From an uncultured Clostridium sp. (lineage in GTDB: Bacteria > Bacillota > Clostridia > Lachnospirales > Lachnospiraceae): 58,579 bases of DNA. The notes below the pieces were generated by a model, which did not search any database, was not told the origin of the DNA, and saw only the letters and a list, made by a program, of their open reading frames with translations. Of this stretch, positions 5,830-54,907 are shown in pieces. The DNA lies in the NCBI GenBank assembly GCA_946553025.1, contig CAMNRM010000031.1, positions 1-58,579 of the forward strand, in the 5' to 3' direction. The translations under genes and the position numbers were made by a program. How positions within the stretch are numbered: position 1 is the stretch's first letter; each line of letters starts with the position of its first letter.

Positions 5830-5846
5830 CTTTACACTCTCCTTAA

Positions 5847-6389: not shown

Positions 6390-6416
6390 GCCTATTTCCT
6401 CCTACTTAAATTTTCG

Positions 6417-6438: not shown

Positions 6439-6482
6439 TGTTTTCAGTTTTTCTCTATTATACGGGTAGGTTCACTCAATGC

Positions 6483-6884: not shown

Positions 6885-6933
6885 AGTGGGTGTGTCCTCC
6901 TTTTCTTTGTTCTCTCCAAAACTCTATTTACTG

Positions 6934-7060: not shown

Positions 7061-7070
7061 TTGCTTTCGG

Positions 7071-7256
7071 TCACCAGCTAGCTTTCTTCACCCCAGGAAT
7101 CTGACCCTTATATGCCAGTTCACGGAAGCAGATACGGCATACGCCATACTTTCTTAAATAAGCGTGCGGACGGCCGCAGATTCTGCAACGGTTATACTGT
7201 CTGGTAGAGAACTTAGCAGGACGCTGCTGCTTAATCTTCATTGAAGTCTTAGCCAT
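7071..7256 (-). CDS. rpsN: 30S ribosomal protein S14, zinc type
   Basis: A 61-residue S14 of the short zinc-binding (type Z) class. The two CxxC knuckles are in [20 protein letters not shown] then CFREL. It ends [13 protein letters not shown]14 sits in the head of the small subunit. It lies between rplE and rpsH as expected. No zinc-independent paralog is visible in this window. Confidence 0.97.
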
Positions 7257-7273
7257 GGAATCAATCCTCCTAA

Positions 7274-7813
7274 TTATTTAGCAAATGGCATATTAAATAA
7301 TGTCAAAAGTTCACGGGCTTCTTCATCGGTCTTTGCGGTAGTTACGAATACAACGTCCATACCTCTTACCTTATCGATCTTATCGTACTCGATTTCCGGG
7401 AAGATCAGCTGCTCTTTAATACCAAGTGCGTAGTTTCCTCTTCCGTCAAATGCGTTCGGGTTTACACCGCGGAAGTCACGTACACGAGGCAGAGCCAGGT
7501 TGATTAAACGATCCGCAAACTCGTACATTCTCTCGCCGCGAAGCGTTACCTTGCAGCCGATAGCCATGCCTTCACGAATCTTAAAGTTTGCCACAGACTT
7601 CTTTGCCTTGGTCGTTACTGCCTTCTGACCGGAGATAATTTCCAAATCTCTTACCGCAGAATCCAGAACCTTGGCATTTTCCTTTGCTTCACCAACGCCC
7701 ATGTTGATGACAATTTTATCAAGCTTCGGCACTTCCATAATATTCTTATATCCGAACTTCTTCATCATTGCACTGACGATTTCGTTCTGATAGGTTTCTT
7801 TTAATCTAGCCAA
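7274..7813 (-). CDS. rplE: 50S ribosomal protein L5
   Basis: A 179-residue L5, which binds 5S rRNA and contacts the P-site tRNA. It has [20 protein letters not shown], the loop [20 protein letters not shown] and the C-terminal [20 protein letters not shown] then PF. It is preceded by rplX and followed by rpsN at a 17-bp distance. Confidence 0.98.
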
Positions 7814-7836
7814 TTTAACGTTCCTCCTCTCTGCAA

Positions 7837-8142
7837 TTAGTCAATTACCTTGCCGGTTGCCTTGGCAACGCGGACCTTCTTGCCGTCCTTTACTTCAAAG
7901 CCCACGCGGGTTGCTTTTCCGTCAACGACCAGCATTACATTAGAAATGTCAATCGGAGCTTCCTTCGAGATAATTCCGCCCTGAGGATTGCCTGCGCTTG
8001 GCTTCGCGTGTTTCGTCACCATATTGCAGCCTTCCACTAAAATCTTCCCGGTCTTAGAATCTACATGAAGGACTTTTCCCTGCTTATCTTTATCTTTTCC
8101 TGCGATTACTTTTACTAAATCGTCTTTTTTGATCTTATGCAC
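7837..8142 (-). CDS. rplX: 50S ribosomal protein L24 (GTG start)
   Basis: A 101-residue L24 with an N-terminal KOW motif ([20 protein letters not shown]). The start is placed at the GTG at 8142-8140. It has AAGGGGGT seven bases upstream, and the protein then opens with the family-typical HKIKKDD. A longer reading from 8184 would add 14 atypical residues and run into the end of rplN. L24 initiates assembly of the large subunit. Confidence 0.95.
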
Positions 8143-8155
8143 AGTGGATACCCCC

Positions 8156-8524
8156 TTATAATACTTCTGGAGCCAGGGAAACAATCTTCATAAACTGCTT
8201 CTCTCTCAGCTCTCTTGCTACCGGCCCAAAGATACGAGTTCCTCTTGGGGTCTTATCGTCTTTGATGATAACGGCTGCGTTCTCATCGAAGCGGATATAA
8301 GAACCATCTTTTCTGTGGGCACCTTTTACGGTACGAACGACAACCGCTTTTACTACATCGCCCTTCTTTACAACGCCGCCTGGTGTTGCATCTTTAACGG
8401 AAGCAACGATGATGTCGCCGATATTGGCATATCTTCTGGTTGAACCGCCCATAACACGGATGCACAGGAGTTCCTTTGCACCGGTATTGTCGGCAACCTT
8501 TAATCTGGTTTCCTGCTGGATCAT
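8156..8524 (-). CDS. rplN: 50S ribosomal protein L14
   Basis: A 122-residue L14 of standard length. Signatures are [40 protein letters not shown] and the end [19 protein letters not shown]14 forms an intersubunit bridge and is the docking site of silencing factors such as RsfS. It lies between rpsQ and rplX. Confidence 0.98.
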
Positions 8525-8548
8525 ACCTGATACTCCTTCCTGAATTAA

Positions 8549-8803
8549 TTATCTGGCTTTCTCGATAATCTCAACCAATCTCCATCTCTTGTCTTTGGAA
8601 AGAGGTCTGGTTTCCATTACTTTTACGGTATCGCCAATGCCACATTCATTCTTCTCGTCATGGGCCTTTAATTTATAGGTTTTCTTTACGATTTTACCAA
8701 TTAAGGGATGCTTTACATGGTCCTCGATAGCAACGACAATGGTTTTATCCATCTTGTCGCTGACCACTTTACCGGTACGCACTTTTCTTAAATTTCTTTC
8801 CAC
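8549..8803 (-). CDS. rpsQ: 30S ribosomal protein S17
   Basis: An 84-residue OB-fold S17, a primary 16S rRNA-binding protein. It has [20 protein letters not shown], and the conserved [19 protein letters not shown] near the C-terminus. Order rpmC-rpsQ-rplN is the standard S10/spc arrangement. Confidence 0.98.
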
Positions 8804-8826
8804 GGTAAATGTTCTCCTTTCCCAAT

Positions 8827-9033
8827 TTAAGCCAGCTTCGTTTTCTCAGCGATAACAGTCTGAATCCTGGCAATGTTCTTGCGAACTTCTTTGATTCTGC
8901 TGGTGTTATCTAACTGGTTGGTTGCATTCTGGAATCTTAAATTAAACAGTTCCTTCTTTGCTGCTACTAATTCTTCATTTAACTCCACCGGAGATTTTGC
9001 CTTTAAATTCTCAACATATTTATTCGTTTTCAC
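8827..9033 (-). CDS. rpmC: 50S ribosomal protein L29 (GTG start)
   Basis: A 68-residue two-helix L29 near the peptide exit tunnel, where SRP and trigger factor dock. The core is [20 protein letters not shown]. The start is taken as GTG at 9033-9031, because AGGCGG lies eight bases upstream. A GTG three codons earlier would overlap that site. The gene start overlaps the end of rplP by 14 bp, implying coupled translation. Confidence 0.93.
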
Positions 9034-9460
9034 TGTTATCACCGCCTTCTAAATCTGCTTTAGAAGCAATCTTGCACTTGCAGGGCAACTTGTGCATAGC
9101 AAGACGCAACGCTTCACGAGCTGTTTCTTCTGGTACGCCAGCGATCTCAAACATAACACGGCCTGGCTTAACAACTGCTACCCAGTACTCTAAGGAACCT
9201 TTACCGGAACCCATACGGGTTTCTGCGGGCTTTGCTGTTACCGGCTTATCCGGGAAAATCTTAATCCAAACTTTACCGCCACGCTTAATAAAACGAGTCA
9301 TCGCCACACGGGCTGCTTCAATCTGGTTGGACTTAATCCAACACGGCTCCATAGCGACTAAACCATATTCACCGTTGGAAATCTTGTTTCCACGAAGGGC
9401 CTTGCCAGCCATGCTTCCACGGAACTGTTTACGACGCTTAACTCTCTTAGGCATTAACAT
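9020..9460 (-). CDS. rplP: 50S ribosomal protein L16
   Basis: A 146-residue L16 that helps position the A-site tRNA. It opens [20 protein letters not shown] and has [20 protein letters not shown], then [20 protein letters not shown]. Its ATG shares its last base position with the end of rpsC at 9460, and its 3' end overlaps rpmC. The C-terminus ends in an acidic tail ([11 protein letters not shown]). Confidence 0.98.
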
Positions 9461-10116
9461 TATTTATCGCTCCCTTCCTTATTTCCTTTAGTAGGAAGTA
9501 CTTCGCCCTTGTAAACCCATACCTTAACGCCAACCTTGCCGTAGGTGGTATCGGCCTCGGCGAATCCATAGTCAATATCTGCTCTTAAGGTCTGCAGCGG
9601 AATAGTACCCTCGCTGTAGAACTCGGTACGCGCCATATCGGCACCGCCAAGACGTCCGGCAACTGCGGTCTTAATACCCTTAACGCCGGCCTTCATGGAA
9701 CGGCTCATAGTGGACTTCATCGCACGGCGGAAGGACACACGGTTCTCTAACTGCTGTGCAATGGACTCGGCAACAAGCTGTGCGTCGCGATCCGGTCTTT
9801 TGATTTCTTTGATGTCAATGAAAACCTTCTTTGCGGTCAGCTTCTGCACTTCAACCTTTAACTTCTCAATCTCTGCGCCGCCCTTGCCGATAACCTGGCC
9901 TGGCTTTGCGGTGTAAATAATAATCTTAACTCTATCTGATGCACGTTCGATTTCAATTTTGGAAACGCCCGCATTTGATAATCTCTTCTTCAGAAACTTT
10001 CTGATGTCATGATCTTCGATCAGGCAGTCAGCAAAATCAGCTTCTGCATACCATTTGGAATCCCAGTCTTTAATAATACCGACTCTTAAACCGTGCGGAT
10101 TAACTTTCTGTCCCAT
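9460..10116 (-). CDS. rpsC: 30S ribosomal protein S3
   Basis: A 218-residue S3 at the mRNA entry channel. It has [20 protein letters not shown], the KH domain with [20 protein letters not shown], and the C-terminal domain with [20 protein letters not shown]. It is followed by rplP with a 1-bp overlap and preceded by rplV with a 14-bp gap. Confidence 0.98.
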
Positions 10117-10130
10117 GCTCTGCCTCCTCC

Positions 10131-10517
10131 TTATCTCTCATTCAGCACAATGGTAATATGGCTCATTCTCTTTTCGATGCGATAAGCGCGTCCCTGTGCT
10201 CTTGGGTGAATCCTCTTCATGGTCGGTCCCTTATTTGCGTAGCACTCCTCAACAAATAAGTTCTCTCTGCTCATGTTGTTATTATTCTCTGCATTGGCAA
10301 TCGCAGATTCCAATAACTTCTTGATTAAGCTGGATGCATACCTTGGGTTGTAAGTTACGATAGCAAGTGCGGTATTTACGTCCTTGCCTCTGATGGCATC
10401 TAAAACGAAACATGCTTTCTGAACCGAAACCCGTGCGTAAGATAACTTCGCGCTTGGCCGGGTGTCCTTATTCGCATTTCTTTCTCTCTTAATTTGGGAT
10501 CTATGTCCTTTAGCCAT
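10131..10517 (-). CDS. rplV: 50S ribosomal protein L22
   Basis: A 128-residue L22, whose long beta hairpin lines the peptide exit tunnel. Present are [20 protein letters not shown] and the tunnel hairpin [20 protein letters not shown]. The N-terminus carries a basic extension ([17 protein letters not shown]) seen in clostridial versions. Order rpsS-rplV-rpsC is standard. Confidence 0.98.
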
Positions 10518-10546
10518 GGATAAAAACCTCCTTTCAAAACGACTAA

Positions 10547-10822
10547 TTATCTGGATTTCTTCTCGTCTTTACCGTGTCCGCGGAATGTTCTGGTGGCAAC
10601 GAACTCGCCCAGCTTATGACCTACCATATCTTCGGTAATATAAACCGGAACGTGCTTTCTTCCATCATGAACAGCGATTGTATGACCAACCATCTGCGGG
10701 AAGATCGTGGAACGGCGGGACCAGGTCTTAATTACCTGCTTACTCCCGGAAGCGTTCATTGCATCGATCTTTTTCAGTAAATGAGCGTCAGCAAATGGTC
10801 CTTTTTTTAATGAACGACTCAT
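10547..10822 (-). CDS. rpsS: 30S ribosomal protein S19
   Basis: A 91-residue S19 that pairs with S13 in the 30S head. It has [40 protein letters not shown] and [20 protein letters not shown]. Spacing to rplB upstream is 18 bp and includes an AGGAGG site. Confidence 0.98.
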
Positions 10823-10840
10823 AAGTTCAAACCTCCTTAA

Positions 10841-11686
10841 TTACTTTAATGTTCTACCGTCGCGTCTTCTTACAATTAACTTGTTCGACTGCTTGTTTTT
10901 CTTTCTGGTCTTTAAGCCGAGTGCCGGTTTGCCCCAAGGTGTGCTTGGACCTGGACGGCCGATACCCGTCTTACCTTCACCACCACCGTGCGGATGGTCG
11001 TTGGGGTTCATAACAGAACCGCGGACGGTAGGTCTGATACCCATGTGACGTTTTCTGCCGGCCTTACCGATATTAATCAGTGCATGATCGCCGTTTCCAA
11101 CTACGCCGATGGTCGCACGGCAGATAATCGGAACCATTCTCATTTCGCCGGAAGGAAGTCTTAACGTGGCATACTTGCCTTCTTTTGCCATTAACTGAGC
11201 AGAGTTGCCAGCGGAACGAACCAGCTGACCGCCCTTGCCCGGATATAACTCAATATTGTGAATTTCTGTACCTACAGGAATCTGTGCCAGCGGCAGGCAG
11301 TTTCCAATCTTAGCCTCTGCGGTTTCGCCGTTCATTACCTTCATGCCTACGGTTAAACCTGCCGGAGCCAGAATATAAGACTTCTCGCCGTCTGCATAGC
11401 AGATTAAAGCGATGTTTGCGGTACGGTTCGGATCGTACTCGATAGCCTTAACGACTGCCGGAACACCATCCTTGTGATTTCTCTTAAAATCAACCAATCT
11501 GTATTTTCTTCTGCTGCCGCCTCCATGATGTCTGACGGTAATCTTACCCTGATTGTTACGACCTGCATTCTTATTTAAGGAAACTACCAGAGATTTCTCT
11601 GGAGTAGACTTGGTAATTTCTGCAAAATCAGAACTGGTCATGTGTCTTCTTGAAGGTGTATATGGATTATACTTCTTAATTCCCAT
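10841..11686 (-). CDS. rplB: 50S ribosomal protein L2
   Basis: A 281-residue L2, needed for subunit association and peptidyl-transferase centre assembly. It begins [20 protein letters not shown]. It includes the highly conserved [20 protein letters not shown] with the histidine near the catalytic centre. A 199-bp hairpin-rich spacer separates it from rplW upstream, much longer than usual for this operon. Confidence 0.98.
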
Positions 11687-11740
11687 GACATTTACTCCTT
11701 TTCATTCTTTATCACGATTACTGGTTTTATTCATCGTATA

Positions 11741-11880
11741 TTCGCGCCCTGCTTTGAGTCGGGTTCAGGAAAATTTTAAAAACTGTGTTGTGCTTGCACA
11801 TAAGCAGGTTTTCAAATTTTCATGGATAGGGCGAATGCCCGCGAGTGAGAAAGGCGCAGCCTTTCGAACAACCCGACGGG
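11741..11880. repeat. Nested inverted repeat between rplW and rplB
   Basis: The rplW-rplB spacer holds nested arms. TTCGCGCCCT near 11741 faces AGGGCGAA near 11827. CAGGAAAATTTTAAAAACTG faces CAGGTTTTCAAATTTTCATG (about 11766-11785 with 11805-11824). AAAGGC-GCA-GCCTTT forms a tight hairpin at about 11850-11864. GTCGGGTT near 11759 faces AACCCGAC near 11870. No open frame was seen. It resembles an inserted palindromic element or a structured leader placed in front of rplB. Confidence 0.6.
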
Positions 11881-11885
11881 GTGGC

Positions 11886-12185
11886 CTACAGCCCTTCAAA
11901 GATTTCAATATCCTTGCTGTCCTCGGTCAGCTTCACAATCGCCTTCTTGGTCTTGGCGGTCTTTCCGAAGGTCATGCCTCTTCTCTTGGTCTTGCCTTCC
12001 AAGTTCATGGTGTTTACGGAGGCAACCTTGGTTCCCGGGAACATCTTTTCCACGGCTTCTTTAATCATGCACTTGTTGGCTTCGGGGTGTACCAGGAAGG
12101 TATACTTCTTATCAGCCATAGCGTTCATGCTCTTTTCGGTAATCACCGGCTTCTGGATTACGTCGTAGTACTTAATATCTGCCAT
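11886..12185 (-). CDS. rplW: 50S ribosomal protein L23
   Basis: A 99-residue L23 at the tunnel exit, a docking site for trigger factor and SRP. It opens [20 protein letters not shown] and has [20 protein letters not shown]. Its start shares base 12185 with the stop of rplD, consistent with coupling. The C-terminus ends DIEIFEGL. Confidence 0.98.
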
Positions 12186-12805
12186 TATGCGTACACCTCC
12201 TCGATGGTTGCAACGGCTGCCTTGGTGGTCACTACGGTGTTATACTTTAAGATATCGTATACATTAATGGTTCCTACCGAAGCAGTCTTTACATCAGCAA
12301 TGTTTCTTGCGGATAATACAACGTTCTGGTCATTATCGTTTAAGATAACCAGGGCCTTTCCAACCTTTAAGTTATCTAAAACGGCTTTAAACTTCTTGGT
12401 CTTAATCTCATCCATCTTCAGTTCGTCAACAACGATGAACTTGTTCTCCTGAACACGGCTGGAAAGTGCAGACTTTAATGCTGCTCTCTTTTCCTTCTTG
12501 TTCAGACGGATGGTGTAATCTCTTGGGGTAGGCGCGAACACTACGCCGCCGCCTGTCCACTGCGGAGCTCTGGTTGAACCCTGTCTTGCATGACCGGTTC
12601 CCTTCTGCCGCCATGGCTTTCTTCCGCCGCCGGATACTTCGGAGCGGGTCTTTGCCTTCTGCGTTCCCTGACGCTTATTTGCAAGCTGGGCAACAACTGC
12701 CAGATGCACGAGATGTTCATTCACCTCTACACCAAATACAGCATCGTTCAGTTCTAATGTGCCAACTTCTTTGCCTTCCATATTAAAAACAGATACGTTT
12801 GCCAT
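12185..12805 (-). CDS. rplD: 50S ribosomal protein L4
   Basis: A 206-residue L4. The extended tunnel loop is present as [20 protein letters not shown] followed by [13 protein letters not shown]. In proteobacteria L4 also represses the S10 operon by binding its leader. Whether that holds here is unknown, although the leader in this window is structured (13964-14191). The 1-bp overlap with rplW suggests tight coupling. Confidence 0.98.
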
Positions 12806-12834
12806 CTGTGTGATCCTCCTTTCCGATAAAAAGC

Positions 12835-13470
12835 TTACTTAGAAACTTTCACGGTTTCTTTAATGGTTACTAAAGACTTCTTCGGCCCTGGTACAGCGCC
12901 CTTAACCAGAATCAGGTTATTCTCGGCATCAACCTTAACCACCTCAAGATTCTGAATCGTCACCTGTACGTTACCCATGTGTCCGGGCATTCCCTTACCC
13001 TTGAATACGCGGCCTGGGGTAGTAGCCGAACCGTTGGAACCCTGATGGCGGTGGAACTTGGAACCATGGGTCATCGGTCCTCTGGACTGGCCTAATCTCT
13101 TGATTGCGCCCTGGAAACCTTTACCTTTGGAGATTGCAGTTGCATCAATCTTATCGCCTGCTGCGAAAACATCAGCCTTGATTTCATCCTTTACCGAATA
13201 CTCTTCCGCATTCTCAAAGCGGAATTCCCGGATATATCTCTTATAGGAAACACCGGCCTTGTCAAAATGGCCTTTCACCGGCTTATTCACCAGTTTCTCT
13301 CTCTTATCTACAAAGCCGACCTGAACAGCCTTGTAGCCGTCGTTCTCTACCGTCTTTACCTGCGTTACCACACAGGGACCGGCCTGAAGAACGGTTACGG
13401 GAGTTAATACGCCTTCATCGGAGAAGATCTGAGTCATACCGACCTTCGTCGCTAAAATCGCTTTCTTCAT
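12835..13470 (-). CDS. rplC: 50S ribosomal protein L3
   Basis: A 211-residue L3, one of the first proteins to bind 23S rRNA. It has [20 protein letters not shown]. The long loop with [20 protein letters not shown] and [20 protein letters not shown] reaches toward the peptidyl-transferase centre. It is separated from rpsJ by 175 bp containing two small hairpins. Confidence 0.98.
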
Positions 13471-13502
13471 TCAATTTACCTCCTGTTCTCTCGATGCTTA
13501 AA

Positions 13503-13559
13503 CTGCAAAAGCAGCCTCAACACCGCATAGCTTCTACAGCGGAACGCTGATTTGCGTTC
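13503..13559. other. Two small hairpins in the rpsJ-rplC spacer
   Basis: The 175-bp spacer between rpsJ and rplC contains the hairpin CTGC-AAAA-GCAG (13503-13514) and GAACGC-tgattt-GCGTTC (13542-13559). No gene is visible. The rest is A+T-rich with an AGGAGG site before rplC. It is the third over-long spacer in this operon; a regulatory role is only a guess. Confidence 0.45.
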
Positions 13560-13645
13560 ATCCTAGAGCAGTCTAATACAGGTTGGTTGAAACACTATAT
13601 TAAAACCATTCTGGATTCTTACTTGTTGAACAATTTGAACAATGC

Positions 13646-13963
13646 TTATTTGTTCTTCATTTTAATGTCGATATACACACCAGCCGGCATCTCTAACTTG
13701 GACAGTGCATCTACTGTCTTCTGGCTCGGGGTGATGATATCAATCAGTCTTTTATGAGTTCTCTGCTCGAACTGCTCGCGGGAATCTTTGTACTTATGCA
13801 CTGCACGAAGAATCGTAACTACTTCCTTCTTTGTGGGCAGCGGCACCGGTCCGCTCACCTGCGATCCCGTCTTTTTTACTGTTTCGATGATTTTTCCGGC
13901 AGACTGGTCAACCAGCTGATGATCGTATGCCTTCAATGTGATTCTCATAACTTGACTTGCCAT
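13646..13963 (-). CDS. rpsJ: 30S ribosomal protein S10
   Basis: A 105-residue S10, also known as NusE for its role in antitermination. It has [40 protein letters not shown] and [20 protein letters not shown]. It is the first gene of the large ribosomal operon. The ATG at 13963 follows AAAAGGAGGCGAC, and a roughly 230-nt leader runs back to the promoter at 14198-14226. Confidence 0.98.
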
Positions 13964-14191
13964 AAAAAAAGTCGCCTCCTTTTCGCACTTTTACGAAGTA
14001 CGACAAGCGGTGACTGTACACGTTTCCGTGTGTGTCCTGCGGACTCACACTTGTTACTGCGGTCTTACCCTGCAGCTGTTTAATTGGTACAGTGACTTGT
14101 CGCCAGTTTCCTAACTTGACATTCGCTCCACGGAAAACCTGCCTAATCTTTAAGCAGCAACCTCTCGCTTCATCGCTATCATGCCACAGCA
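13964..14191 (-). promoter_or_regulatory. Structured 5' leader of the S10 operon
   Basis: Between the predicted start site and rpsJ the RNA can form a long closing stem: CGACAAG...TGACTGTAC (14001-14019) with GTACAGTGACTTGTCG (14087-14102). Inside it is a 10-bp arm with one mismatch, GTGTGTGTCC (14028-14037) with GGACTCACAC (14041-14050). Such leaders often bind a ribosomal protein to autoregulate the operon. The ligand is not evident. A reading frame across part of this region has no ribosome-binding site and looks spurious. Confidence 0.55.
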
Positions 14192-14197
14192 TTTTGA

Positions 14198-14226
14198 ATC
14201 ATAGCATAGATTTCCTGATTATGCAA
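14198..14226 (-). promoter_or_regulatory. S10 operon promoter
   Basis: On the minus strand TTGCAT (14226-14221), a 17-bp spacer and TATGAT (14203-14198) form a near-consensus housekeeping promoter. The predicted start is near 14191, giving the leader described at 13964-14191. A+T-rich direct repeats (TTTGCAAGTTT) lie just upstream and may act as an UP-like element. Confidence 0.75.
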
Positions 14227-14301
14227 GCATTTTTTTGAAGAAATTTGCAAGTTTTTTTTAAGAAAATTTTGCAAGTTTAAGAAAGCAGGCTGCAATTTGG
14301 C

Positions 14302-14331
14302 TTGTTTAAACCTCCTCGCCTATGCTATGAT
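14302..14331 (+). promoter_or_regulatory. Promoter of the HipA-like kinase pair
   Basis: On the plus strand TTGTTT (14302-14307), an 18-bp spacer and TATGAT (14326-14331) lie 46 bp ahead of the kinase ATG. They are divergent from the S10 promoter roughly 100 bp away. The -10 is good and the -35 is weak, so moderate confidence. Confidence 0.5.
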
Positions 14332-14377
14332 AGAGAAGAGGCAATGGATGCAGAAAATGCTTGAATGAGGTAGAGAA

Positions 14378-15295
14378 ATGATTCCTGTCATAGAAATAAG
14401 TACAATACCCCCTAACGGAAAAACATATAATGGCAATACTAGAAAGTTCGGCATAACCATCGATAACGTGGACTATATCGTAAAATTTCCTAAAGATAAT
14501 GATTTATCGGTTTACTGCGAATATACAGCAAGTAATTTTTTAAGAAATCTCGGCATATCCTGCCATGAAGTTTTTCTTGGACATTATAAGGGTGTGGCTG
14601 TGGATATTATAAAGGATTTTACCTCCAATACACAGCTTTCCTTACATTCTTATAAAGATACAAAACAAAGCAGCGAAGATACCGAAATAGGGGATAAAGA
14701 ATATACCTATGATGATGTTTTATATTTGATGGACAAACATTTAAAAATGACCGAAGAATCGAAACAGGAAGCAAAAGAAAAATTTTGGGAAATGTTTATC
14801 TGCGATGCAATAATAGGAAACAGGGACAGGCACTGGGGGAATTGGGGCTATTTAAGTAATGGAAAGACCTACCGGTTTGCACCATTGTATGATAATGGTG
14901 CTGGATTATATCCGGGAGTAAATCTTGTAATTCATCAGTACATGAATGTTATAACACGAAAGAACTTTTTATACGACAGAGTATTTGTATTTCCGGCATC
15001 CTTATTTAAGATACGAAAACCAGACCGAAGTTACAGAAGCAATTATGCAGAGATGTTTAAGGACTTGGAAATCAATAAAGTATTTCGCGGGCAGGTGGAA
15101 AAATTCAAAAAAAATATAAGTTACCAAACCGTTTTCCATGCGATGAAGGAAGTATGTGCTGCCCTTCCTTTAAACGTTGAATATCGAAGATTCTATATTG
15201 AAATCGTAACCCTGCGCTATATGTGTATCGTTCTTCGGCTGGATTTTGAACCGTCTTATCAATTCGTGGAAGGAGCATTAACGGATTATGCCTGA
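14378..15295 (+). CDS. HipA/CtkA-like protein kinase
   Basis: A 305-residue protein with the layout of HipA-fold serine/threonine kinases. An N-terminal lobe has the nucleotide-binding lysine in DNVDYIVKFPK and CEYTASNFLRNLGI. The catalytic loop is IIGNRDRHWGNWG (Asn-x-Asp-x-His-x2-Asn-like) near residue 146. The metal-binding motif is APLYDNGAGL near 170. HipA-type kinases phosphorylate tRNA synthetases or other targets and often act as toxins. There is no HipB-like DNA-binding gene next to it. Instead it overlaps by 8 bp a 136-residue unknown protein. The gene is more A+T-rich than the ribosomal genes beside it, which hints at transfer. Assignment rests on motifs only. Confidence 0.7.
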   Translation: MIPVIEISTIPPNGKTYNGNTRKFGITIDNVDYIVKFPKDNDLSVYCEYTASNFLRNLGISCHEVFLGHYKGVAVDIIKDFTSNTQLSLHSYKDTKQSSEDTEIGDKEYTYDDVLYLMDKHLKMTEESKQEAKEKFWEMFICDAIIGNRDRHWGNWGYLSNGKTYRFAPLYDNGAGLYPGVNLVIHQYMNVITRKNFLYDRVFVFPASLFKIRKPDRSYRSNYAEMFKDLEINKVFRGQVEKFKKNISYQTVFHAMKEVCAALPLNVEYRRFYIEIVTLRYMCIVLRLDFEPSYQFVEGALTDYA

Positions 15296-46423: not shown

Positions 46424-47026
46424 TCATACATCAGTCTGTATCTTCCTCACAGAAGACTTGTTTTTCGTGGGCAGGAAACCGCCCTCGCCTTTGTAATCCC
46501 ATGTCTTGCTGATGGATAAGGTCTGCCTTGCAAAATCAAAATCCCCCAGAGTTATCGCAAGCGCCTCCGAAAACCTCATGCCCGTTTTTGCAACAAGCAG
46601 GATAAACCAGTCCCAATTTGTTTCTTCTTTAATATCAAGATGGGCTATCAATGTATGAAGTTCAAACTGGTTTAAATATTTTATCTTCTTGGTTCTCGGC
46701 GTTTTTCCCTTAATGATCGCCTTTCTTGTCGGATCACGTTCGAGCAGTCCCTCGTCAACAGCGTCAAGGATTGCCCCCTTAAGCTGATGGTGAAAATCAA
46801 GCGTTGTCTGCCTTTCATGCTCTTTCGCATAATCGTTTAAGAGTTGTTGGTAGGCGCTTCTTGAAAGTTCGCACAGTTTCAGTTCCGGCACAAGTTTTTC
46901 AACCCACTTCTGCGTCATCAGGTACTTTGACATCGTGGCTTCCCTTATTGCTCCCTTCTTGTACACGTCTACCCATTGTCTGTAATACTCGCAAAAAGTT
47001 GTTTCACTGTTCATATCTTTTAGCAT
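46424..47026 (-). pseudogene. Tyrosine recombinase, C-terminally truncated
   Basis: A 200-codon frame from ATG 47026 (GGAGGCAGCTT ahead). It contains the N-terminal core-binding domain (FCEYYRQWVDVYKKGAIREA, TMSKYLMTQKWVEKLVPELK) and the start of the catalytic domain with the first arginine in AKTGMRFSEALAITLGDFDF. It ends at RKIQTDV before the HxxR box and catalytic tyrosine, so it should be inactive. Recombinases of this type beside hsdS genes often shuffle specificity domains. Here it follows hsdR by 70 bp. Confidence 0.8.
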
Positions 47027-47096
47027 AAGCTGCCTCCATTTCCTGAAATTACTTACGCTGATATAAACAGCCGGAAAGAATAAAATCACACCACAT

Positions 47097-50072
47097 TTAC
47101 TGGCTGGTAAGCGGTTTGATCTCCTCATCCAGCGTTTTCTTAAGTTTCGCCATCATCTGTGCATAATATTTGAACTTAGGAAGAGCCTTTTCCTTTGCCG
47201 CCTTATAACTGGTAAAATCTATGGTTGCTTTTATCTGGCTTTCATTCGGTATTTCCCCATTTTTATAATGATTTGCCGCATACATGACATCATCTTTTGA
47301 TGCATACCATAGCAGACAGAAATCCGTAATCACCCTATCTATGCAGTCCTGCTTCATATTTTCCACAATATTTAAGATAGACTTTCCTTTATATTTTTCT
47401 GCATCCATTTCAATTTCATCAATCAGCCCAGACATGATATCCGCAATCTTCGGGTTATCCCTGCGGAGTTCCTCCACATACTGTCTTACCTCACCAATCT
47501 TCTTCTGCCGTTCTTCAGGTGTGATATCTCTTTCGCCATCTTCCGGCGTGACAATATTTTGGATCAGATTAATGATATACTCATAATCTATTTTTGTGCT
47601 GCTGTACGCCATCAACTCATAATCAGAATCTATCTGCATAGATTCCGTATCATCCGATTCTTTATCCGGCTTACTCTCCTTGATTTCCTCCAGCACATTA
47701 AAATAATGCCCCGCGTAAGTTTCATATTCCTCTTGTGTGATACCATACCCTGCAAGCATTCCATCATCATAATTTGTAAAGGATTTCATCTGGGCAAATA
47801 ACCGGTCAAAATTCTGGAACATCTTAGCAAATACTTTTTTCTCTTTTATCGACATCCCAGAAACTTCCAAAGGAGTTTTCGCCGAAACACGCAGCGCTGA
47901 GAGTGCTTTCTTAAACGCAGGCTCTATTTCGTCCCATTCCGCTAACAACGCTTCTTTCGTTCCTCCTGCGGAGTACAGCTTTACTGCTTCATCCACACAT
48001 TTTTTAAATAGTACCGGAGCCTGAAAGGTCACAATCTGTCCATAGGTTTTGTTTTTGTCATAAATACGGTTCGTCCTTGAAAAAGCCTGTATCAAGTCAT
48101 GGGCTCCCATCGGCTGTCGGTCAATAAAAATCGTTGACATGCATGGGGCATCAAATCCCGTAAGAAGCCGGTCTACTACAATCACAATATCGAGCTGCTC
48201 GCTCCTGCTCTGGAATTTGGTTTCCTTCCTCGCAAGCCTCTTATTTAAGTTTCCATTGTATCCCTGAATCTGGGAAAGCTCATATTTTGTTCCGAACATC
48301 TCATTATAATCGTCAAGAGAAGCCTGCATTTTCTGCTGGTTCACCTGAGAGCCTTCCTCATTCTCGGAAACGGAATAGGTTATGGCAAATTTAGGAAAAT
48401 CCGGAAGCACCTGCTTTATTTTCTCGTCTATCCTAAGGGAAGTTTCCCCCTTCTTTACCTTTGCCAATAGTTCATAATATTTCTGCGCAAGCTGAATGGA
48501 ACTTGTTGTAAGAATTCCCTCATAGGTCATTCCCCTGCCATTTTGAAATCCTAATTTATGATAAGACCTGTTCAGGATAACATCCAGCACGTTCAGCATG
48601 TGTGCCTCATTGTCATATGCGTTTTTATCCGTTTCGTCGGCAATATCCTTGGGACCGTTGTGTTCCACCTGAAATCCGAGGACGGCATTGTCATGAATCG
48701 CATTCTGTATCGCATACTTATGCAGCCTTTCTCCATACAGCTCCTCTGTTGTCCTCGGCAGATCCCCCATCTGCGGATATGGATTCTCTGCAAATCTGGG
48801 CGTTCCGGTGAAGCCAAACCACAGGGAATTTCCAAAAAACCGTTCCAGTTCCCTTTTCATTCCCGGTGTAACCGCCCTGTGGCACTCATCCACGACAAAT
48901 GCGATTTTAAGATTCCGTATTTTCCGGTATTCCGGCGTATCTTCCTGAAGCCTTTTTGTTATCAGCCTTTGCAGTTTTTGTATCGTTGTCACAATCACTT
49001 GTCTGTCGCTCGATTTCAGTTTTTTCTTCAGATCGTTTACATTATCCGTTTCGTCAACATCCACCAAATCGTTATTTGCATAAGCCTGAAATGCCATTGT
49101 CGTCTGGGTGTCCAAATCTTTACGGTCAATCAGGAATACAGCTTTATCAATGGCGGGTATGTCCATCAGCAGATTCCTTGTCGCCTTGTATGAAGTCAGC
49201 GTTTTCCCGGAACCAGTCGTATGCCACACATAACCTGATCTTCCCGTTTTGGACGCTTCACGGATTGCCTCAATCGCATGAATCTGATACGGGCGCAGCA
49301 GGATCAGCTTTTTAGCATCTTCATCCAACACTGTATACCTCGCAATCATCTCGTGCGCCTCCGGGATGCAAAGAACACTTTTTGCAAAATCCATACAATC
49401 CGTTACCGGATTATTGTCCTTATCAAGCCAGCCGCTGATAAACTTGGGGTTCAGTTCCGTATCGCCAGCCGCGGAAAAATATTTTGTATTTACGCCGTTG
49501 CTGATAACAAACATCTGTACTGCCGAAAAAATGCCTGTAAATTTTCCTTCTCCAATATATTTCTTAATCTGCCAGAATCCGTCCATATAAGAGTGCTGCT
49601 TATTTTTCAATTCAATATGAATCATGGGAAGTCCGTTAATTAACAGCGTCACATCAAATCGCCTGTCCCTTGTGGGGGCTTTGTTATCCTCATCCGTCTT
49701 TAATGCGCTGTACTGATTAATAACCTCATAGACGCTGCTTCCGCCTGCAATATGCTCGTGGTTCATCACAACAAGGTGGAGGCGCTCCATATCCCTCTGC
49801 ACATGCACCTGGACTTTCCCGTTCTCTCCTACCAGCCACTCACCTGCCCTGTAAAACGATGAAAACTGAAGCTGGTTCTTTACCTGTTCAAACTCACTTT
49901 CCGACAAAGATTCCCCATTCAGCCTGTCTTTATTGTTCTGCTCAAGGATATACTTGAAATTCGCCCATAAATCATTTTCCGTTTTTAAATCTTCCCTGTA
50001 AACCCACTGTGAATCTCCGTAGACAAGCTGTTCTATCAGTTTCTTTTCAATCATTGACTCTAATTCCGGCAT
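47097..50072 (-). CDS. hsdR: Type I restriction enzyme R subunit
   Basis: A 991-residue HsdR, the ATP-driven translocase and nuclease of a type I system. The N-terminal nuclease domain has RRFDVTLLINGLPMIHIELK (Asp, and Glu-x-Lys). The helicase domains have WHTTGSGKTLTSYKA (Walker A), VDECHRAV (DECH box) and VVDRLLTGFDAPCMSTIFID then QAFSRTNRI. The start is set at ATG 50072 after AGGAG. An upstream in-frame extension would be encoded in an hsdS relic. It is separated from hsdM-hsdS by an AlbA-like gene. Confidence 0.95.
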   Translation of the reverse strand: MPELESMIEKKLIEQLVYGDSQWVYREDLKTENDLWANFKYILEQNNKDRLNGESLSESEFEQVKNQLQFSSFYRAGEWLVGENGKVQVHVQRDMERLHLVVMNHEHIAGGSSVYEVINQYSALKTDEDNKAPTRDRRFDVTLLINGLPMIHIELKNKQHSYMDGFWQIKKYIGEGKFTGIFSAVQMFVISNGVNTKYFSAAGDTELNPKFISGWLDKDNNPVTDCMDFAKSVLCIPEAHEMIARYTVLDEDAKKLILLRPYQIHAIEAIREASKTGRSGYVWHTTGSGKTLTSYKATRNLLMDIPAIDKAVFLIDRKDLDTQTTMAFQAYANNDLVDVDETDNVNDLKKKLKSSDRQVIVTTIQKLQRLITKRLQEDTPEYRKIRNLKIAFVVDECHRAVTPGMKRELERFFGNSLWFGFTGTPRFAENPYPQMGDLPRTTEELYGERLHKYAIQNAIHDNAVLGFQVEHNGPKDIADETDKNAYDNEAHMLNVLDVILNRSYHKLGFQNGRGMTYEGILTTSSIQLAQKYYELLAKVKKGETSLRIDEKIKQVLPDFPKFAITYSVSENEEGSQVNQQKMQASLDDYNEMFGTKYELSQIQGYNGNLNKRLARKETKFQSRSEQLDIVIVVDRLLTGFDAPCMSTIFIDRQPMGAHDLIQAFSRTNRIYDKNKTYGQIVTFQAPVLFKKCVDEAVKLYSAGGTKEALLAEWDEIEPAFKKALSALRVSAKTPLEVSGMSIKEKKVFAKMFQNFDRLFAQMKSFTNYDDGMLAGYGITQEEYETYAGHYFNVLEEIKESKPDKESDDTESMQIDSDYELMAYSSTKIDYEYIINLIQNIVTPEDGERDITPEERQKKIGEVRQYVEELRRDNPKIADIMSGLIDEIEMDAEKYKGKSILNIVENMKQDCIDRVITDFCLLWYASKDDVMYAANHYKNGEIPNESQIKATIDFTSYKAAKEKALPKFKYYAQMMAKLKKTLDEEIKPLTSQ

Positions 50073-50085
50073 TTTTATCATCTCC

Positions 50086-50202
50086 TTATAACCCCTTATT
50101 TCCGTTAAAACCATTTGAAAACGAAAGCATCTCCCCCAGCTTACGCTGTTCCCAAGCTAAAGTAATAATTTGTGTTGTATCAGAAACACTAATCAAGTGA
50201 TA
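50086..50202 (-). pseudogene. hsdS target-recognition domain remnant
   Basis: The minus strand reads LAWEQRKLGEMLSFSNGFNG and then NKGL and stop. AWEQRKLGE followed by LSFSNG is the typical start of an HsdS target-recognition domain. The DNA over AWEQRKLGE (50132-50157) is identical for 26 bp to 52453-52478 in the intact hsdS. No ribosome-binding site or start is visible. It is a leftover of a second specificity gene, in the same orientation as the intact one. Confidence 0.8.
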
Positions 50203-50319: not shown

Positions 50320-51873
50320 TTAGAGTTCTGTTTCGTTTTCAGGATTTACCACAATCCATCGTCCATTCCTATTTGAACCTTCTCTTACAAGGAACCCTTC
50401 TTTCTGCAATTCCTTTATTACCTTCTGAATCTGTTTTCGGGTCAAATCAAGTCTTTCCATAAGCTGTGTCTGAGTCGTTGCTGGTTTTTCTTTCAAAATT
50501 TCTAATACTGCTTTCTTTCTCTCAATCCCATTACTCAGTTCCTTTTCGGCTCCTTTTCGGCTCCTTTTCGGCTCCTTTTCGGCTCCTTTTCGGCTCCTTT
50601 TTGACTCCTCACTAAAAATATTTATAAATCCCTCATGCACAAACAATCTTGAGATAAAATAGCTTCTTGCTTCATCCGTTTCAAATTCAGGTTTAGGAGA
50701 GCCATTTGTCTTTAATGCATCTAAAATTTTTTTTAACCCGGTATTCCTGCCTTCTGTCAAATGCAGTTCTTTTAAAAAATCTCCAATCCTGCGGTTTCTA
50801 TATCTGCGATTTGAAACACGATAATTTTTCAGTCCCTCCTGCGTGACCGAACGATCAGGTCCCGGAAAGCTTACTATTTCAATTCTGTCGCTTTCTATAC
50901 GAACCTCAATTGGCTCACGTTCATCATATGCACGATGATAGACGGCATTGGACAATGCCTCCTCCACAGCTGCATATGGATAATTAAAAAAACGATCTGC
51001 TTCGGCTCTGTCAGGATATTTTACCACTTTTTCTGTAATAACTGTATTTTTAATATATTGCAAAGCATCTCTCAACTGCTGGTGGATCGGTCCCTTAAAC
51101 GTCTTCTCAATAATATCATTTCCGCCTAATCCACTCGGGAACTGAACAACATCTATTTGTGTATACGGAAAAAACTTATCTGGCTCTATGCTAAAAAACA
51201 TCAAACCCACATTTTTGGGCTTCACATATTCCGGCAAGACGCTGATAATGTTCATATCTCTGCACACACCAATGATATCATTTGTTTTAGATTTCTCATA
51301 CAGTGAACTGTCAATTTCTTTTAAATAGTTTTGAATGAGAATTATATTTAAATCCGACAATTCCGCCTGATGATTCACCCGATCATCAAACGGCACCCTA
51401 TTCGCTAAATTAAATAAATCCTTTTCGTCATCATCCGATGGCTCTACAGAATTCGAAGCCTTGCGGATATAATGAATCCGCTCTTTATTATCTCTTGCCA
51501 TAGTCTTTGGAGCCGAATATGGTCTGCTGTCACCACCCGGACACCAAAGGATAATAAATATCTTATCCTGATACCTCTCTATTCCTATAATTGGCGTATA
51601 TGACGGTCTGAGATACCTGCATTTTGCATAAATTTCTTTCTGATATGCATCAACTTTTTCCAAAGGTACTCCTTTTAATGGATATACAGGCCGTCCATTT
51701 TCCTCCTGAACGCCGATGACAATATATCCACCACCCCAATTATCCAAATCATTTGCGAAAGCGCAAACGGTCTTCAAAGATGCGGCCGGATCCCATGTCT
51801 CTTTAAACTCGATCCTCGCCCATTCGACTACATCGCCCGATAGTAATGTTTTTATATTTGTCGGTATTGCCAT
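50320..51873 (-). CDS. AlbA_2/Schlafen-like ATP-binding protein with repeat-switchable C-terminus
   Basis: A 517-residue protein embedded in the type I restriction locus. The start is ATG 51873 after GTGGAGGAAAGTA. The N-terminal AlbA_2 (Schlafen-like) domain (about 10-130) has VEWARIEFKETWDPAASLKT, AFANDLDNWGGGYIVIGV and GGDSRPYSAP. A GHKL-type HATPase_c_4 segment (about 305-350) has VEEALSNAVYHRAYDEREPI. After an 11-residue repeat (KRSRKGAEKEP, at about 422-444) comes a winged helix (about 446-517; TQTQLMERLDLTRKQIQKVI). An 11-bp DNA repeat underlies the linker and could switch the winged helix off by slippage. Such genes in restriction loci may regulate or add to defence; the role here is unknown. 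Confidence 0.85.
   Translation of the reverse strand: MAIPTNIKTLLSGDVVEWARIEFKETWDPAASLKTVCAFANDLDNWGGGYIVIGVQEENGRPVYPLKGVPLEKVDAYQKEIYAKCRYLRPSYTPIIGIERYQDKIFIILWCPGGDSRPYSAPKTMARDNKERIHYIRKASNSVEPSDDDEKDLFNLANRVPFDDRVNHQAELSDLNIILIQNYLKEIDSSLYEKSKTNDIIGVCRDMNIISVLPEYVKPKNVGLMFFSIEPDKFFPYTQIDVVQFPSGLGGNDIIEKTFKGPIHQQLRDALQYIKNTVITEKVVKYPDRAEADRFFNYPYAAVEEALSNAVYHRAYDEREPIEVRIESDRIEIVSFPGPDRSVTQEGLKNYRVSNRRYRNRRIGDFLKELHLTEGRNTGLKKILDALKTNGSPKPEFETDEARSYFISRLFVHEGFINIFSEESKRSRKGAEKEPKRSRKGAEKELSNGIERKKAVLEILKEKPATTQTQLMERLDLTRKQIQKVIKELQKEGFLVREGSNRNGRWIVVNPENETEL
50541..50606. repeat. 11-bp tandem repeat inside coding sequence (five perfect copies)
   Basis: CCTTTTCGGCT occurs five times without error (50541-50595), followed by the degenerate copy CCTTTTTGACT (50596-50606). 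On the coding strand the unit is AGCCGAAAAGG, which has no stop in any frame. As 11 is not a multiple of 3, gain or loss of one copy shifts the frame. After the repeat the sequence CTGAGTAA gives TGA or GAG-TAA in the two other frames, so translation ends at once. Confidence 0.9.
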
Positions 51874-51920
51874 TACTTTCCTCCACTTTTTCAATCCAGG
51901 TATACCTTTAAGTAATTTTT

Positions 51921-53138
51921 CTAAACAAACATCTTTTCCAGCATGAACTTTTTCAGGGTTCTCAGGCTTTCCAATTTACGCTGGTGAAGGGTGATGAGGT
52001 TATCAAGATTTCTAAAATACTCACCAATTTTCTTTTGTTCATCTTTACTTGGTAGTAAAACTTCAAAGTTTTCTACACTTCCTCTTGAAATATTCAACTG
52101 AGATGAACCAACACCTTGTAGTTTAAAATATCTCTGATGAGCATTAATATAAGAAAACAAATACCTAATATCAGCAAAACCATTATTTCTTAATAATGCT
52201 ACACGCTGATTTAACACAAACTTGTTATTTTCAGGGATTATTGCTACTCTTCCAAGCAAATCACCATGTCCTACATCACTAAGAACCATTACCAAATCAT
52301 CCTTGATAAGTGTTTCTGTTTCTTCATCAATAAACTTTCCAGAGGACTTTAATCCACCATCAATAGAAATAGAATTCAAGTTCACCAACTCATATTTTCC
52401 GACATCAGACTGTTTTTCTTCATGCCCTGTTCCATTGCGATATGTTGCTAATTCCCCCAGCTTACGCTGTTCCCAAGCATCAGTAAATCCATCAAATCTA
52501 ATCTTTGGAACATTGCTGCCATTTTGAGGGAACATATTTTGCAACATATATTTTTTTAACTTTTTTACCTCTTCACACTTACGCTGGTGAAGAGTGATGA
52601 GGTGGTCGAGGTGGCGGAAAACGGCAACAATTTGGTCTTGCTCAATTCTTGTCGGATACGAAATGACTACTCCTTGTATATCCGAATTATGGATGTGAAC
52701 TACCGATTTCCCTTGCGCCCTTTTTGCCAGTTCTTTTTGTGGTTCACCGTTTGAAATAGCAAGTGCCAAAAAAGATGAATTTATAAAGTCAAACGGACGG
52801 AGAATATTTAAGTCCCCACCCAGCAAAACCCCAGGTTTTTCAACGGCTGACGCTCTTGCTATATCTTCCGCCGTTTCTCCCGAAGCAGGAATTATTACTT
52901 CATTCCCCTGGCTATAAACAGCACCTGCTTTCGGAATAGCAAAAGTATCCACTTCATTGATCACAAATTGGTACTTTGTATAAAGCCTGCCATATAGAAT
53001 TATCGGTGTTCCGCTCTCTGTTAAATCGCTTTTAGAATAGCCGTTTCCTTTTGAGTATTCAGCGATATCCACAGCCTTACGCTGTTCCCAAGCTTCTATA
53101 TACCCTTTAAACCTAATCCTCGGTTTATTCATATCCAT
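51921..53138 (-). CDS. hsdS: Type I restriction specificity subunit
   Basis: A specificity subunit of about 405 residues with two target-recognition domains and the two conserved helical repeats. Both domains begin with the same motif, AWEQRKAVDIAEY and AWEQRKLGELATY. Both helical repeats have LITLHQRK (FRHLDHLITLHQRKCEEVKK and FRNLDNLITLHQRKLESLRT). The start overlaps the hsdM stop (TGATG). An ATG two codons later is an alternative start. The near-identical DNA at domain starts gives sites for recombination, and a third copy sits before hsdR. Confidence 0.94.
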   Translation of the reverse strand: MDMNKPRIRFKGYIEAWEQRKAVDIAEYSKGNGYSKSDLTESGTPIILYGRLYTKYQFVINEVDTFAIPKAGAVYSQGNEVIIPASGETAEDIARASAVEKPGVLLGGDLNILRPFDFINSSFLALAISNGEPQKELAKRAQGKSVVHIHNSDIQGVVISYPTRIEQDQIVAVFRHLDHLITLHQRKCEEVKKLKKYMLQNMFPQNGSNVPKIRFDGFTDAWEQRKLGELATYRNGTGHEEKQSDVGKYELVNLNSISIDGGLKSSGKFIDEETETLIKDDLVMVLSDVGHGDLLGRVAIIPENNKFVLNQRVALLRNNGFADIRYLFSYINAHQRYFKLQGVGSSQLNISRGSVENFEVLLPSKDEQKKIGEYFRNLDNLITLHQRKLESLRTLKKFMLEKMFV

Positions 53139-54736
53139 CACCTCTCAATCATCTTAATCAAATCATTTAACGTTTGATTGACACCTTCATCCGAAGAAGT
53201 CAGATCTTTCATCATGGATACAAATTCCCCCTGAATCCGGACAATTTCTTTCTCGGTCTGCTTCATATCATTCAGAAGGGCTTTCAGGTCTATTTCTTCC
53301 TCTTTCTCAAAATTGTCCACATATCTGGGAATATTCAGGTTGAAGTCATTCTTTTCAATACCTGCAAATTCCGCAAGGAAAGCCTCTTTTTCCACGGTTT
53401 CCCGCCTGTTGTACAATTCTATGACAGAATCAATATGCTCATCCGTCATTGCATTCTGCTTTTTCCCTTTTTCAAATTTCCGGGATGCGTCGATAAACAA
53501 TACATCACGTCCATCCCTGTGTTTTTTCAGCACAATAATGCAGGTGGGAATAGATGTGTTGTAAAATAAATTAGCCGGAAGCCCAATCACCGCATAGATG
53601 TTTCCGGCTCGGAGCAATTTTTCCCTTATCTTCCCTTCCGCCGCCCCTCGGAACAAAACCCCGTGTGGAAGTACAATTGCCATTGTTCCACTGCTTTTCA
53701 GGTGGTACAGGCCATGCAGCAGAAACGCATAATCAGCTTTTGACTTTGGTGCTAACACGCCATAATCGCTGAACCTTTCATCCTGGAGAAACCCGGCGGC
53801 TGCGCTCCAGTTTGCCGAGTATGGCGGATTCATGAGCACCATGTTAAAATCGGTTTCCTCATCCGTAGGCCAGTCCCCGTCAAGAGTATCGGCATTGCGG
53901 AGCTTTTGGTTCTCGGGCACGATACCATGCAAAAACATATTCATTCTTGCAAGGTTATATGTAGACGTCATCAGTTCCTGCCCATAATATTTAATGTAGT
54001 CTGGCTCTGCGGCATATTTCTTTGCATTCAGCAAAAGGGAACCGGAACCCATACAGGGATCATACACCGACAGTCCCCTCTTTCTCTCCTGACCTGCAAT
54101 CGCAATCCTTGTCAGGATTTTTGACACTGCCTGGGGCGTGTAAAATTCCCCCGCCTTCTTGCCCGTTTCGGAGGCAAATTGTCCGATTAAATATTCATAG
54201 GCATTTCCAAGAATATCCGAATCCGTATTCAGAAGGTCTGCCCTGTCTATTTCCCTGATCAAATTTGATATTGTATCGCTCTGTTTCTGATCTCCCGTCC
54301 CCAGTCGGTTAGAATACAGGTCAATATCAGTAAACAAATCCGCAAACAGCGGATCGCTTTGCTCAATGTTGTTAAAAGCTTTCTGAAGCTGCTCACGGTT
54401 AAACATATTATTCCTTGCCGCATCTGCAAAACAGGTATAGGTCAAATCCGGCTCAATAACATAATGACATTCCTCCCTGACCTGTTCTTTCAGTTCCTCC
54501 GCACTCTCATCCTCCAGCACCTCTCTGTATGCCTCCAGGGCTGTCTTTAAATTTTGCGGCTTTTCATCATAAATCAAATCATAGACTTTAATCAGAAAAG
54601 AGTCTGACAAATATTTGTAAAATACAATACCCAGCAGATAATCCTTATACTCATTTGCATCCATTTTCGAACGCAGGATATCTGCACCACTCCACAGTAC
54701 ACTGATCAAGTCCCTGCTGTTTTCCAGTTCCGCCAT
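53138..54736 (-). CDS. hsdM: Type I DNA methyltransferase M subunit
   Basis: A 532-residue adenine-N6 methyltransferase. The N-terminal helical domain starts at MAELENSRDLISVLWSGADI. SAM binding is at YDPCMGSGSLLLNAKKY and the catalytic motif is VLMNPPYSANW. The C-terminal coiled coil (LLNDMKQTEKEIVRIQGEFV) contacts HsdS. Start chosen at 54736 (GGAGGG six bases ahead); ATG 54766, with AGGAG, is equally possible. TTGACA at about 54893-54898 may be its -35, but no good -10 was found. Confidence 0.93.
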   Translation of the reverse strand: MAELENSRDLISVLWSGADILRSKMDANEYKDYLLGIVFYKYLSDSFLIKVYDLIYDEKPQNLKTALEAYREVLEDESAEELKEQVREECHYVIEPDLTYTCFADAARNNMFNREQLQKAFNNIEQSDPLFADLFTDIDLYSNRLGTGDQKQSDTISNLIREIDRADLLNTDSDILGNAYEYLIGQFASETGKKAGEFYTPQAVSKILTRIAIAGQERKRGLSVYDPCMGSGSLLLNAKKYAAEPDYIKYYGQELMTSTYNLARMNMFLHGIVPENQKLRNADTLDGDWPTDEETDFNMVLMNPPYSANWSAAAGFLQDERFSDYGVLAPKSKADYAFLLHGLYHLKSSGTMAIVLPHGVLFRGAAEGKIREKLLRAGNIYAVIGLPANLFYNTSIPTCIIVLKKHRDGRDVLFIDASRKFEKGKKQNAMTDEHIDSVIELYNRRETVEKEAFLAEFAGIEKNDFNLNIPRYVDNFEKEEEIDLKALLNDMKQTEKEIVRIQGEFVSMMKDLTSSDEGVNQTLNDLIKMIER

Positions 54737-54907
54737 CTTAATCCCTCCATCAGTCCCTTTCAACATATTGCTTTCTCCTTTTGCAATGCCAAAACATATT
54801 TGCAGTCCATTTCTCAACGATAAACGAAAAGACGAAACTAATCTATAGATAGAACATGAATATCCAGTAATAAAGTAAATCACAGCATATATCTGTCAAA
54901 ATTACAC

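Follow-up and report, generated by a model that had tools for sequence, protein, structure and literature searches.

A coding 11-bp tandem array before the winged helix of an AlbA/ATPase protein, at a joint where different arrays recur across the gene family

The window—the whole stretch of 58,579 nucleotides analysed here—contains a type I restriction locus with the gene order hsdM, hsdS, repeat gene, hsdR. The placement of the repeat-bearing gene between hsdS (51921-53141) and hsdR (47097-50114) given in the original prediction is thereby confirmed. The features of the locus are as follows.

47097..50114, minus strand: hsdR, type I restriction subunit of the EcoR124_C type (profile match).
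50086..50160, minus strand: hsdS fragment (LAWEQRKLGEMLSFSNGFNGNKGL, then a stop) lying between hsdR and the repeat gene; it corresponds to the beginning of a target-recognition half, and 26 nt are identical to the central hsdS repeat.
50320..51894, minus strand: the repeat gene, encoding an AlbA_2-HATPase_c_4-winged-helix protein of 524 aa from TTG (open reading frame and Pfam).
50359..50520, minus strand: C-terminal winged helix, residues ~459-512 (Pfam HTH_24 and MarR_2; structure model).
50530..50616, minus strand: disordered joint, mostly array-coded, residues ~427-455 (pLDDT below 50).
50541..50595, minus strand: five perfect 11-bp copies, CCTTTTCGGCT on the forward strand and AGCCGAAAAGG on the coding strand.
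50596..50606, minus strand: sixth, imperfect copy with two mismatches, CCTTTTTGACT, at the array's upstream edge (unit count; TRF, 6.4 copies).
50671..50913, minus strand: HATPase_c_4, residues 328-408 (Pfam, E 4.8e-13).
51445..51825, minus strand: SLFN_AlbA_2, residues 24-150 (Pfam, E 3.7e-12).
51921..53141, minus strand: hsdS, type I specificity subunit (Methylase_S, E 7.3e-28).
53138..54883, minus strand: hsdM, type I methylase (N6_Mtase, E 1.7e-104; TIGR00497).

Both Pfam domains of the window protein exceed the curated cut-off, and a C-terminal winged helix is also present—an architecture filed as COG2865. Judged from the relatives in alignment A1, translation likely starts at the ATG at codon 8; numbering in the open reading frame equals model or A1 first-row numbering plus 8. 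The AlphaFold model of the protein had a mean pLDDT of 82.1 and a pTM of 0.62. Model residues 419-447 fall below a pLDDT of 50 and are followed by the folded winged helix, indicating that the array encodes a disordered joint. Across the 21 sequences of A1 (window included), which reach down to 26% identity to the window protein, AlbA residues E16, E21 and K23 and ATPase residues E303, E304 and N308 are invariant (first-row numbering). The top structural match to the model identified by Foldseek was DIP2311 of Corynebacterium diphtheriae (PDB 3lmm; E 1.9e-19), a protein listed as uncharacterized, at 16-17% identity and an rmsd of 24 Å; a sequence search with the window protein matched the ATPase part of 3lmm as well as 2kyy. 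Foldseek matches to the winged helix (50359-50520) included MarR folds and also Z-alpha domains (1qgp, E 0.017, 29% over 69 columns). When compared with the Z-alpha contact residues, a lysine and a tryptophan fit whereas an asparagine and a tyrosine do not and, with the latter two contacts absent, Z-alpha membership is not claimed.

The five perfect in-frame copies described in the original prediction were recovered at 50541-50595 with 0 mismatches, and TRF assigned the array a period of 11, 6.4 copies and 96% matches. No tandem run in the window (periods 4-59) is longer than its exact period-11 run, with 51 matches, and the maximum among 30 first-order Markov versions of the same stretch was 15. 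Moreover, the exact doubled unit is unique to the array in the 4.87-Mb assembly (4 overlapping matches; reversed control, 0). The array is thus a perfect coding-region tandem repeat with a unit length that is not a multiple of three. The reading frame stays open with 2, 5 or 8 copies (513, 524 and 535 aa, respectively), and it ends at 450 aa with 4 copies and at 456 aa with 6 copies, at stops located 2-6 nt beyond the array. The frame break and the immediate stops expected from a one-copy change hold, as does the accompanying loss of the winged helix (524 aa reduced to 456 or 450 aa, with residues ~459-512 gone); according to the structural model, the winged helix would be almost the only folded part lost through such a gain or loss.

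These features could mark a contingency locus, in which slippage of the 11-bp unit would reversibly toggle the protein between forms with and without the winged helix, giving mixed populations. The non-triplet unit, the five perfect copies and the immediate stops in the other frames favour this reading, which we consider possible if doubtful in the light of the relatives described below. The available part of one account (PMC3711429) presents mod of Haemophilus influenzae, with its AGTC repeats, as a simple-sequence-repeat contingency gene; like such genes, the window gene carries a non-triplet coding repeat in which a unit change shifts the frame. Unlike them, the window gene has a unit of 11 bp in five copies only, would lose the C-terminal domain alone, and has 0 out-of-frame alleles among the 11 full-length genes sharing its unit.

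A role of the repeat gene in tuning the restriction system had also been suggested, and this link proved weak. Using tblastn with the window hsd proteins, we examined 48 stretches and found close hsd partners in two of the 39 that carry the gene or a remnant, namely L069 (decayed) and L133, a count that other type I families could escape. In Pfam analysis of 20 chosen neighbours from 17 loci, domains of restriction or defence type adjoined the gene in five (L046, L051, L054, L133 and L137). No constant hsd neighbourhood was found in either set, and specificity for restriction loci is rejected as a rule: the repeat gene adjoins restriction genes sometimes, not always.

Several additional features of these neighbourhoods were recorded. 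In the window, the hsdS fragment at 50086-50160 and the centre of hsdS (52453-52486) share a 34-bp direct repeat (91%), so that recombination there would delete half of hsdS together with the repeat gene; a tyrosine-recombinase gene fragment adjoins hsdR (46424-47128; 234 aa, matching the integrase profile to position 59 of 172 only). Locus L133 (genome G089, 5840-14389) is a type I locus comprising hsdR, hsdM, a relative of the repeat gene with a 12-bp joint repeat, and hsdS; by eye, it also includes a second hsdS part and an opposite-strand integrase, resembling a recombinase-shuffled hsdS locus. Two family genes lie in tandem in L069 (4405-7995), one bearing an 11-bp array of the AGCCGAAAAGG type and the other one of AGAAGCATCGG x 7.1, and the pair sits between hsdM and hsdR pieces carrying internal deletions. 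In L063, L123, L124, L129 and L139 the gene or remnant stands, by eye, directly before one common gene, apparently uvrB, and L067 and L058 share another pair of flanking genes, which enclose a whole copy in one case and an array-bearing stub in the other. These common flanks—the uvrB-like gene and the L067/L058 pair—point to shared insertion sites.

To place the array in a broader context, one genome per species was scanned for pairs of neighbouring units of 11 or 12 bp, which yielded 28 stretches; a homologue or remnant of the repeat gene was detected by tblastn in 20 of them. The other eight (L049, L052, L055, L062, L065, L066, L070 and L071) stand outside the frame counts given below, from which L045 and L068 (12-bp unit) and L056, L058 and G086 (fragments lacking a readable array plus winged helix) were also omitted. 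Protein searches of 145, 397 and 138 genomes supplied further relatives; other draws overlapped these, the one made again round G408 being almost identical to the previous family set. The sampled genes are non-independent, with one genome per species and many metagenome assemblies. The gene is patchily distributed, with matches at E 1e-40 or better in 39 of 397 family genomes, and plasmid matches comprised 16 records, every one below 60% identity. No match was found in the E. coli collection (5,426 genomes), genus searches round G045, G211 and G425 (3, 1 and 2 genomes, respectively) gave no new locus with the window's unit, and in the viral contigs the pattern scan returned 0 stretches and the protein scan 11 pattern hits, 0 of them confirmed. 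Finally, in a limited literature search at listing level, we recognised no description of repeats in the AlbA_2-HATPase_c_4 family.

Every one of the 11 distinct full-length genes sharing the window's unit is in frame: the window itself, L044, L046, L047, L048, L050, L051, L057, L067, L142 and L143, with L153 (close to L143), L144 (the same as L050) and L148 (the same as L051) set aside as duplicates. Among them, L044 and L057 are whole, with 519 and 513 aa open. Arithmetically, random and independent frames would give 11 in-frame genes with a chance of (1/3)^11, about 6e-6, and 0 of 11 out of frame corresponds to an upper 95% bound of about 24%. The copy in genome G408 (L060/L087/L121) is in frame and cut at residue 22 by a stop, and in-frame arrays outside the full-length count were also seen in L064 (cut by the contig end) and in the damaged L061 and L105. 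Out-of-frame arrays of the window's unit were found in L053/L059 (one allele), L054, L063, G045 (L022/L129) and, in L069, the first of the two genes. Each of these five is a remnant without the N-terminal part. We considered L053, L054, L059, L063, L069 and G045 as OFF alleles and rejected them, as they lack the first 186 to ~413 residues. Intactness and frame are associated, with 11 of 11 full-length genes and 3 of 8 damaged ones in frame (0.005 by Fisher arithmetic); an earlier count of full-length or cut copies gave 10/10 against 3/8 (Fisher p 0.0065), and with 7/7 against 3/8 the Fisher p at that stage was 0.026.

Both the absence of out-of-frame alleles among the 11 full-length genes and the confinement of out-of-frame window-type arrays to remnants speak against a contingency locus, as do the close out-of-frame stops, which are not evidently conserved. 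Measured in eight relatives from the end of the exact repeats, the distance to these stops ranges from 0 to 147 nt, a figure raised by degenerate copies, and a conserved clean OFF stop was not seen. Renewed translation of the winged helix beyond the OFF stop was also rejected from the sequence, where a TAATG opens a short frame only. Separately, the matches in L121 (G408, 8350-8666) and L109 (G281) both start at residue 23 with a stop in or just before the match, as if there were a common junction at this position.

The remnants invite a second explanation, whereby an accessory gene is being lost and its array and frame drift without function. The deletions in L053, L054, L063, G045 and L069 and the patchy occurrence in 39/397 family genomes fit such neutral decay, but the AlbA and ATPase residues kept invariant in 21 sequences down to 26% identity, together with a frame that remains open past the core in 56 of 57 genes, indicate constraint; this reading seems to us very unlikely.

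Changes in array length were followed in 24 close pairs by ungapped comparison, as an earlier gapped pair table overstates identity (the aligner opens gaps freely) and only its visibly clean pairs were used. In 20 of the 24 pairs the copies are in frame and differ by 0, 3, 9, 24, 33 or 186 bp, and the four frame-breaking pairs all involve remnants (one L069, three L054). Whole-unit changes between relatives thus include both frame-keeping and frame-breaking steps, of 33, 22 and 11 bp. The window gene (L005) differs from L087 by 33 bp and from L069, its nearest relative in the pair table (88% identity upstream and 84% in the winged helix), which is out of frame and longer by two units (22 bp). 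The window holds five identical copies and L069 eight varied ones, a comparison that suggests recent turnover in the window's lineage. Frame is retained through compensating units, e.g., between L046 and L105, which lie 24 bp apart, and in the A-runs that make 13-bp units in L046 and L060. In L063 and G045, the same remnant stands ahead of the uvrB-like gene with arrays about one unit apart, and L102 and L108, with near-identical flanks, have four and two 12-bp units, respectively. Arrays were unchanged in L053/L059 (98% flank identity), L143/L153 (two genomes) and L057/L064, the first two of these pairs counting against contingency. As a further observation, AATGTCCGAATC or a near form occurs about four times in the joints of L102, L103, L104 and L111 (L111 broken), from four genomes, whereas the broken but near-identical L108 has two units of this type; such a polymorphism in steps of 12 bp would suit a test of spacer length.

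One nearly whole distant relative, with another unit, is out of frame. Locus L110 (genome G340) has an open frame of 434 aa with a 20-residue internal gap relative to L150 (85% identity over 446 columns); its winged helix lies in the next frame and its joint is 11 bp shorter than that of L150, which by reading amounts to one unit. With both halves still open, L110 is the leading candidate OFF allele. It is the one nearly intact copy found out of frame, against 0 of 11 otherwise intact copies with the window's unit. Contingency also gains from L069, two units longer than the window gene and out of frame, and from the second 11-bp unit in its sister gene (AGAAGCATCGG, 7.1 copies). Taken together, the proposed phase variation of the DNA-binding arm stands in part: the position of a frame-breaking array in the joint that precedes the winged helix and its evolution by whole units (22 bp in L069, 11 bp in L110) are borne out, but all 11 full-length genes are in frame and the five out-of-frame window-type arrays lie in remnants. 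The pair differences lean towards the refuting condition set out in the original prediction, on a contrast between species rather than isolates.

We also examined the stretch after the ATPase core across the family. Among 57 genes with a one-piece match to the N-terminal part—a set that excludes L110, matched in two pieces—56 continue for at least 60 aa past the core, the exception being L101. Tandem arrays with a score of at least 20 occur after the core in 27 of these 56 genes and in the N-terminal part of 0 of 56. The post-core region taken here, covering joint and winged helix, is no longer than 400 nt, and the N-terminal part is ~1230 nt; the remaining 29 genes have no post-core array at this score. 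Sampling relied on homology to the window protein and on the unit itself and the genes are non-independent, making the proportion with arrays an unfair estimate for the family; the contrast between the two regions is less affected, because both come from the same genes. The post-core periods are 12 bp in 12 genes, 11 bp in 10, and 13, 21, 23, 24 and 30 bp in one each, and in the printed joints the arrays are located in the joint. About 11 different unit sequences could be told apart by eye (e.g., AATGTCCGAATC, TCAACCCCAAAT, AAAAGGTGACTG and AGAAGCATCGG), and the encoded peptides vary in chemistry among lineages (A1). The post-core stretch of this family is therefore shown to be a hot spot for tandem arrays of ~11-12 bp with lineage-specific sequences—and the recurrence of different units at one joint is a stronger result than the single array first noticed.

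The composition of the units raises one further alternative, i.e., recoding, in which ribosome or RNA polymerase slippage on A-rich, Shine-Dalgarno-like units would let out-of-frame alleles yield some full-length protein. The motif AAAAGGAG is present in each unit and several relatives have A-runs of six or more, but no common slippery heptamer or out-of-frame stop position was noticed by eye in the printed joints, and the window allele, being in frame, makes recoding unnecessary; we regard this possibility as extremely improbable.

On balance, we think that the array is probably a coding minisatellite in a disordered joint, serving as a spacer that is prone to slippage but in most cases held in frame by selection; such a frame-kept spacer is likelier than a switch. 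The array would act as a tether of the winged helix to the AlbA/ATPase core; replication slippage would create and resize it, and the encoded peptide would serve as a spacer whose sequence matters little, which suits the differing peptide chemistry between lineages. Selection would usually purge frame-breaking length changes, presumably owing to a requirement for the winged helix. As the unit is 11 bp long, gain or loss of any one copy would remove the winged helix; the locus is thus liable to lose its function, and a later slip could restore it. The absence of arrays at a score of at least 20 from 29 of 56 genes implies that the array is not required. The nearly whole L110, out of frame by one 11-bp unit, counts against the frame-kept spacer, and the identical copies of the window set beside the varied ones of L069 point to recent activity that pure purifying selection would leave unexplained.

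The closest mechanism for a ruler of this kind, by analogy, would be the HsdS subunits of EcoR124I and EcoR124II, in which, according to the portion of the source available (PMC3874165), two or three copies of a 12-bp TAEL spacer repeat alter the spacing read on DNA. The likeness lies in a tandem repeat joining two DNA-contacting parts, and 12-bp arrays follow the core in twelve relatives of the window gene. In contrast to the EcoR124 spacer, the window unit is 11 bp long and breaks the frame, and the joint is disordered in the model rather than helical; an in-frame spacer repeat of the EcoR124 kind is thus not present in the window, while the 12-bp relatives match it in length.

A functional parallel is offered by TrlG of Photorhabdus laumondii, described in the available part of PMC7554251 as an AlbA_2 and a HATPase_c_4 domain joined by a loop and encoded in a putative three-gene operon. 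TrlG shares the two Pfam domains of the window protein, and its description there includes neither a winged helix nor a repeat array (PMC7554251). The protein limits growth at 36 °C, and stops, substitutions and insertions in TrlG lift this limit (PMC7554251). On that account, an AlbA_2-HATPase_c_4 protein can act as a conditional growth restrictor, and loss-of-function alleles are selectable in at least one relative—a circumstance that suits a switch and simple loss alike.

A bolder scenario, which we judge unlikely, is that the joint minisatellite of one lineage began as a ruler of 12-bp units, which preserve the frame, and became a switch of 11-bp units, which break it, toggling between a restrained protein tethered to its winged helix and a free AlbA/ATPase effector; gut Lachnospiraceae would then possess a contingency locus whose product is an effector of defence or growth restriction. 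If the arrays are switches, they would represent a slippage-driven contingency gene in gut Firmicutes, sometimes beside defence genes. If, instead, the joint arrays are rulers, they would provide a natural series of spacer lengths within one protein family, with which the control of a Schlafen-like core by a tethered DNA-binding domain could be tested directly.
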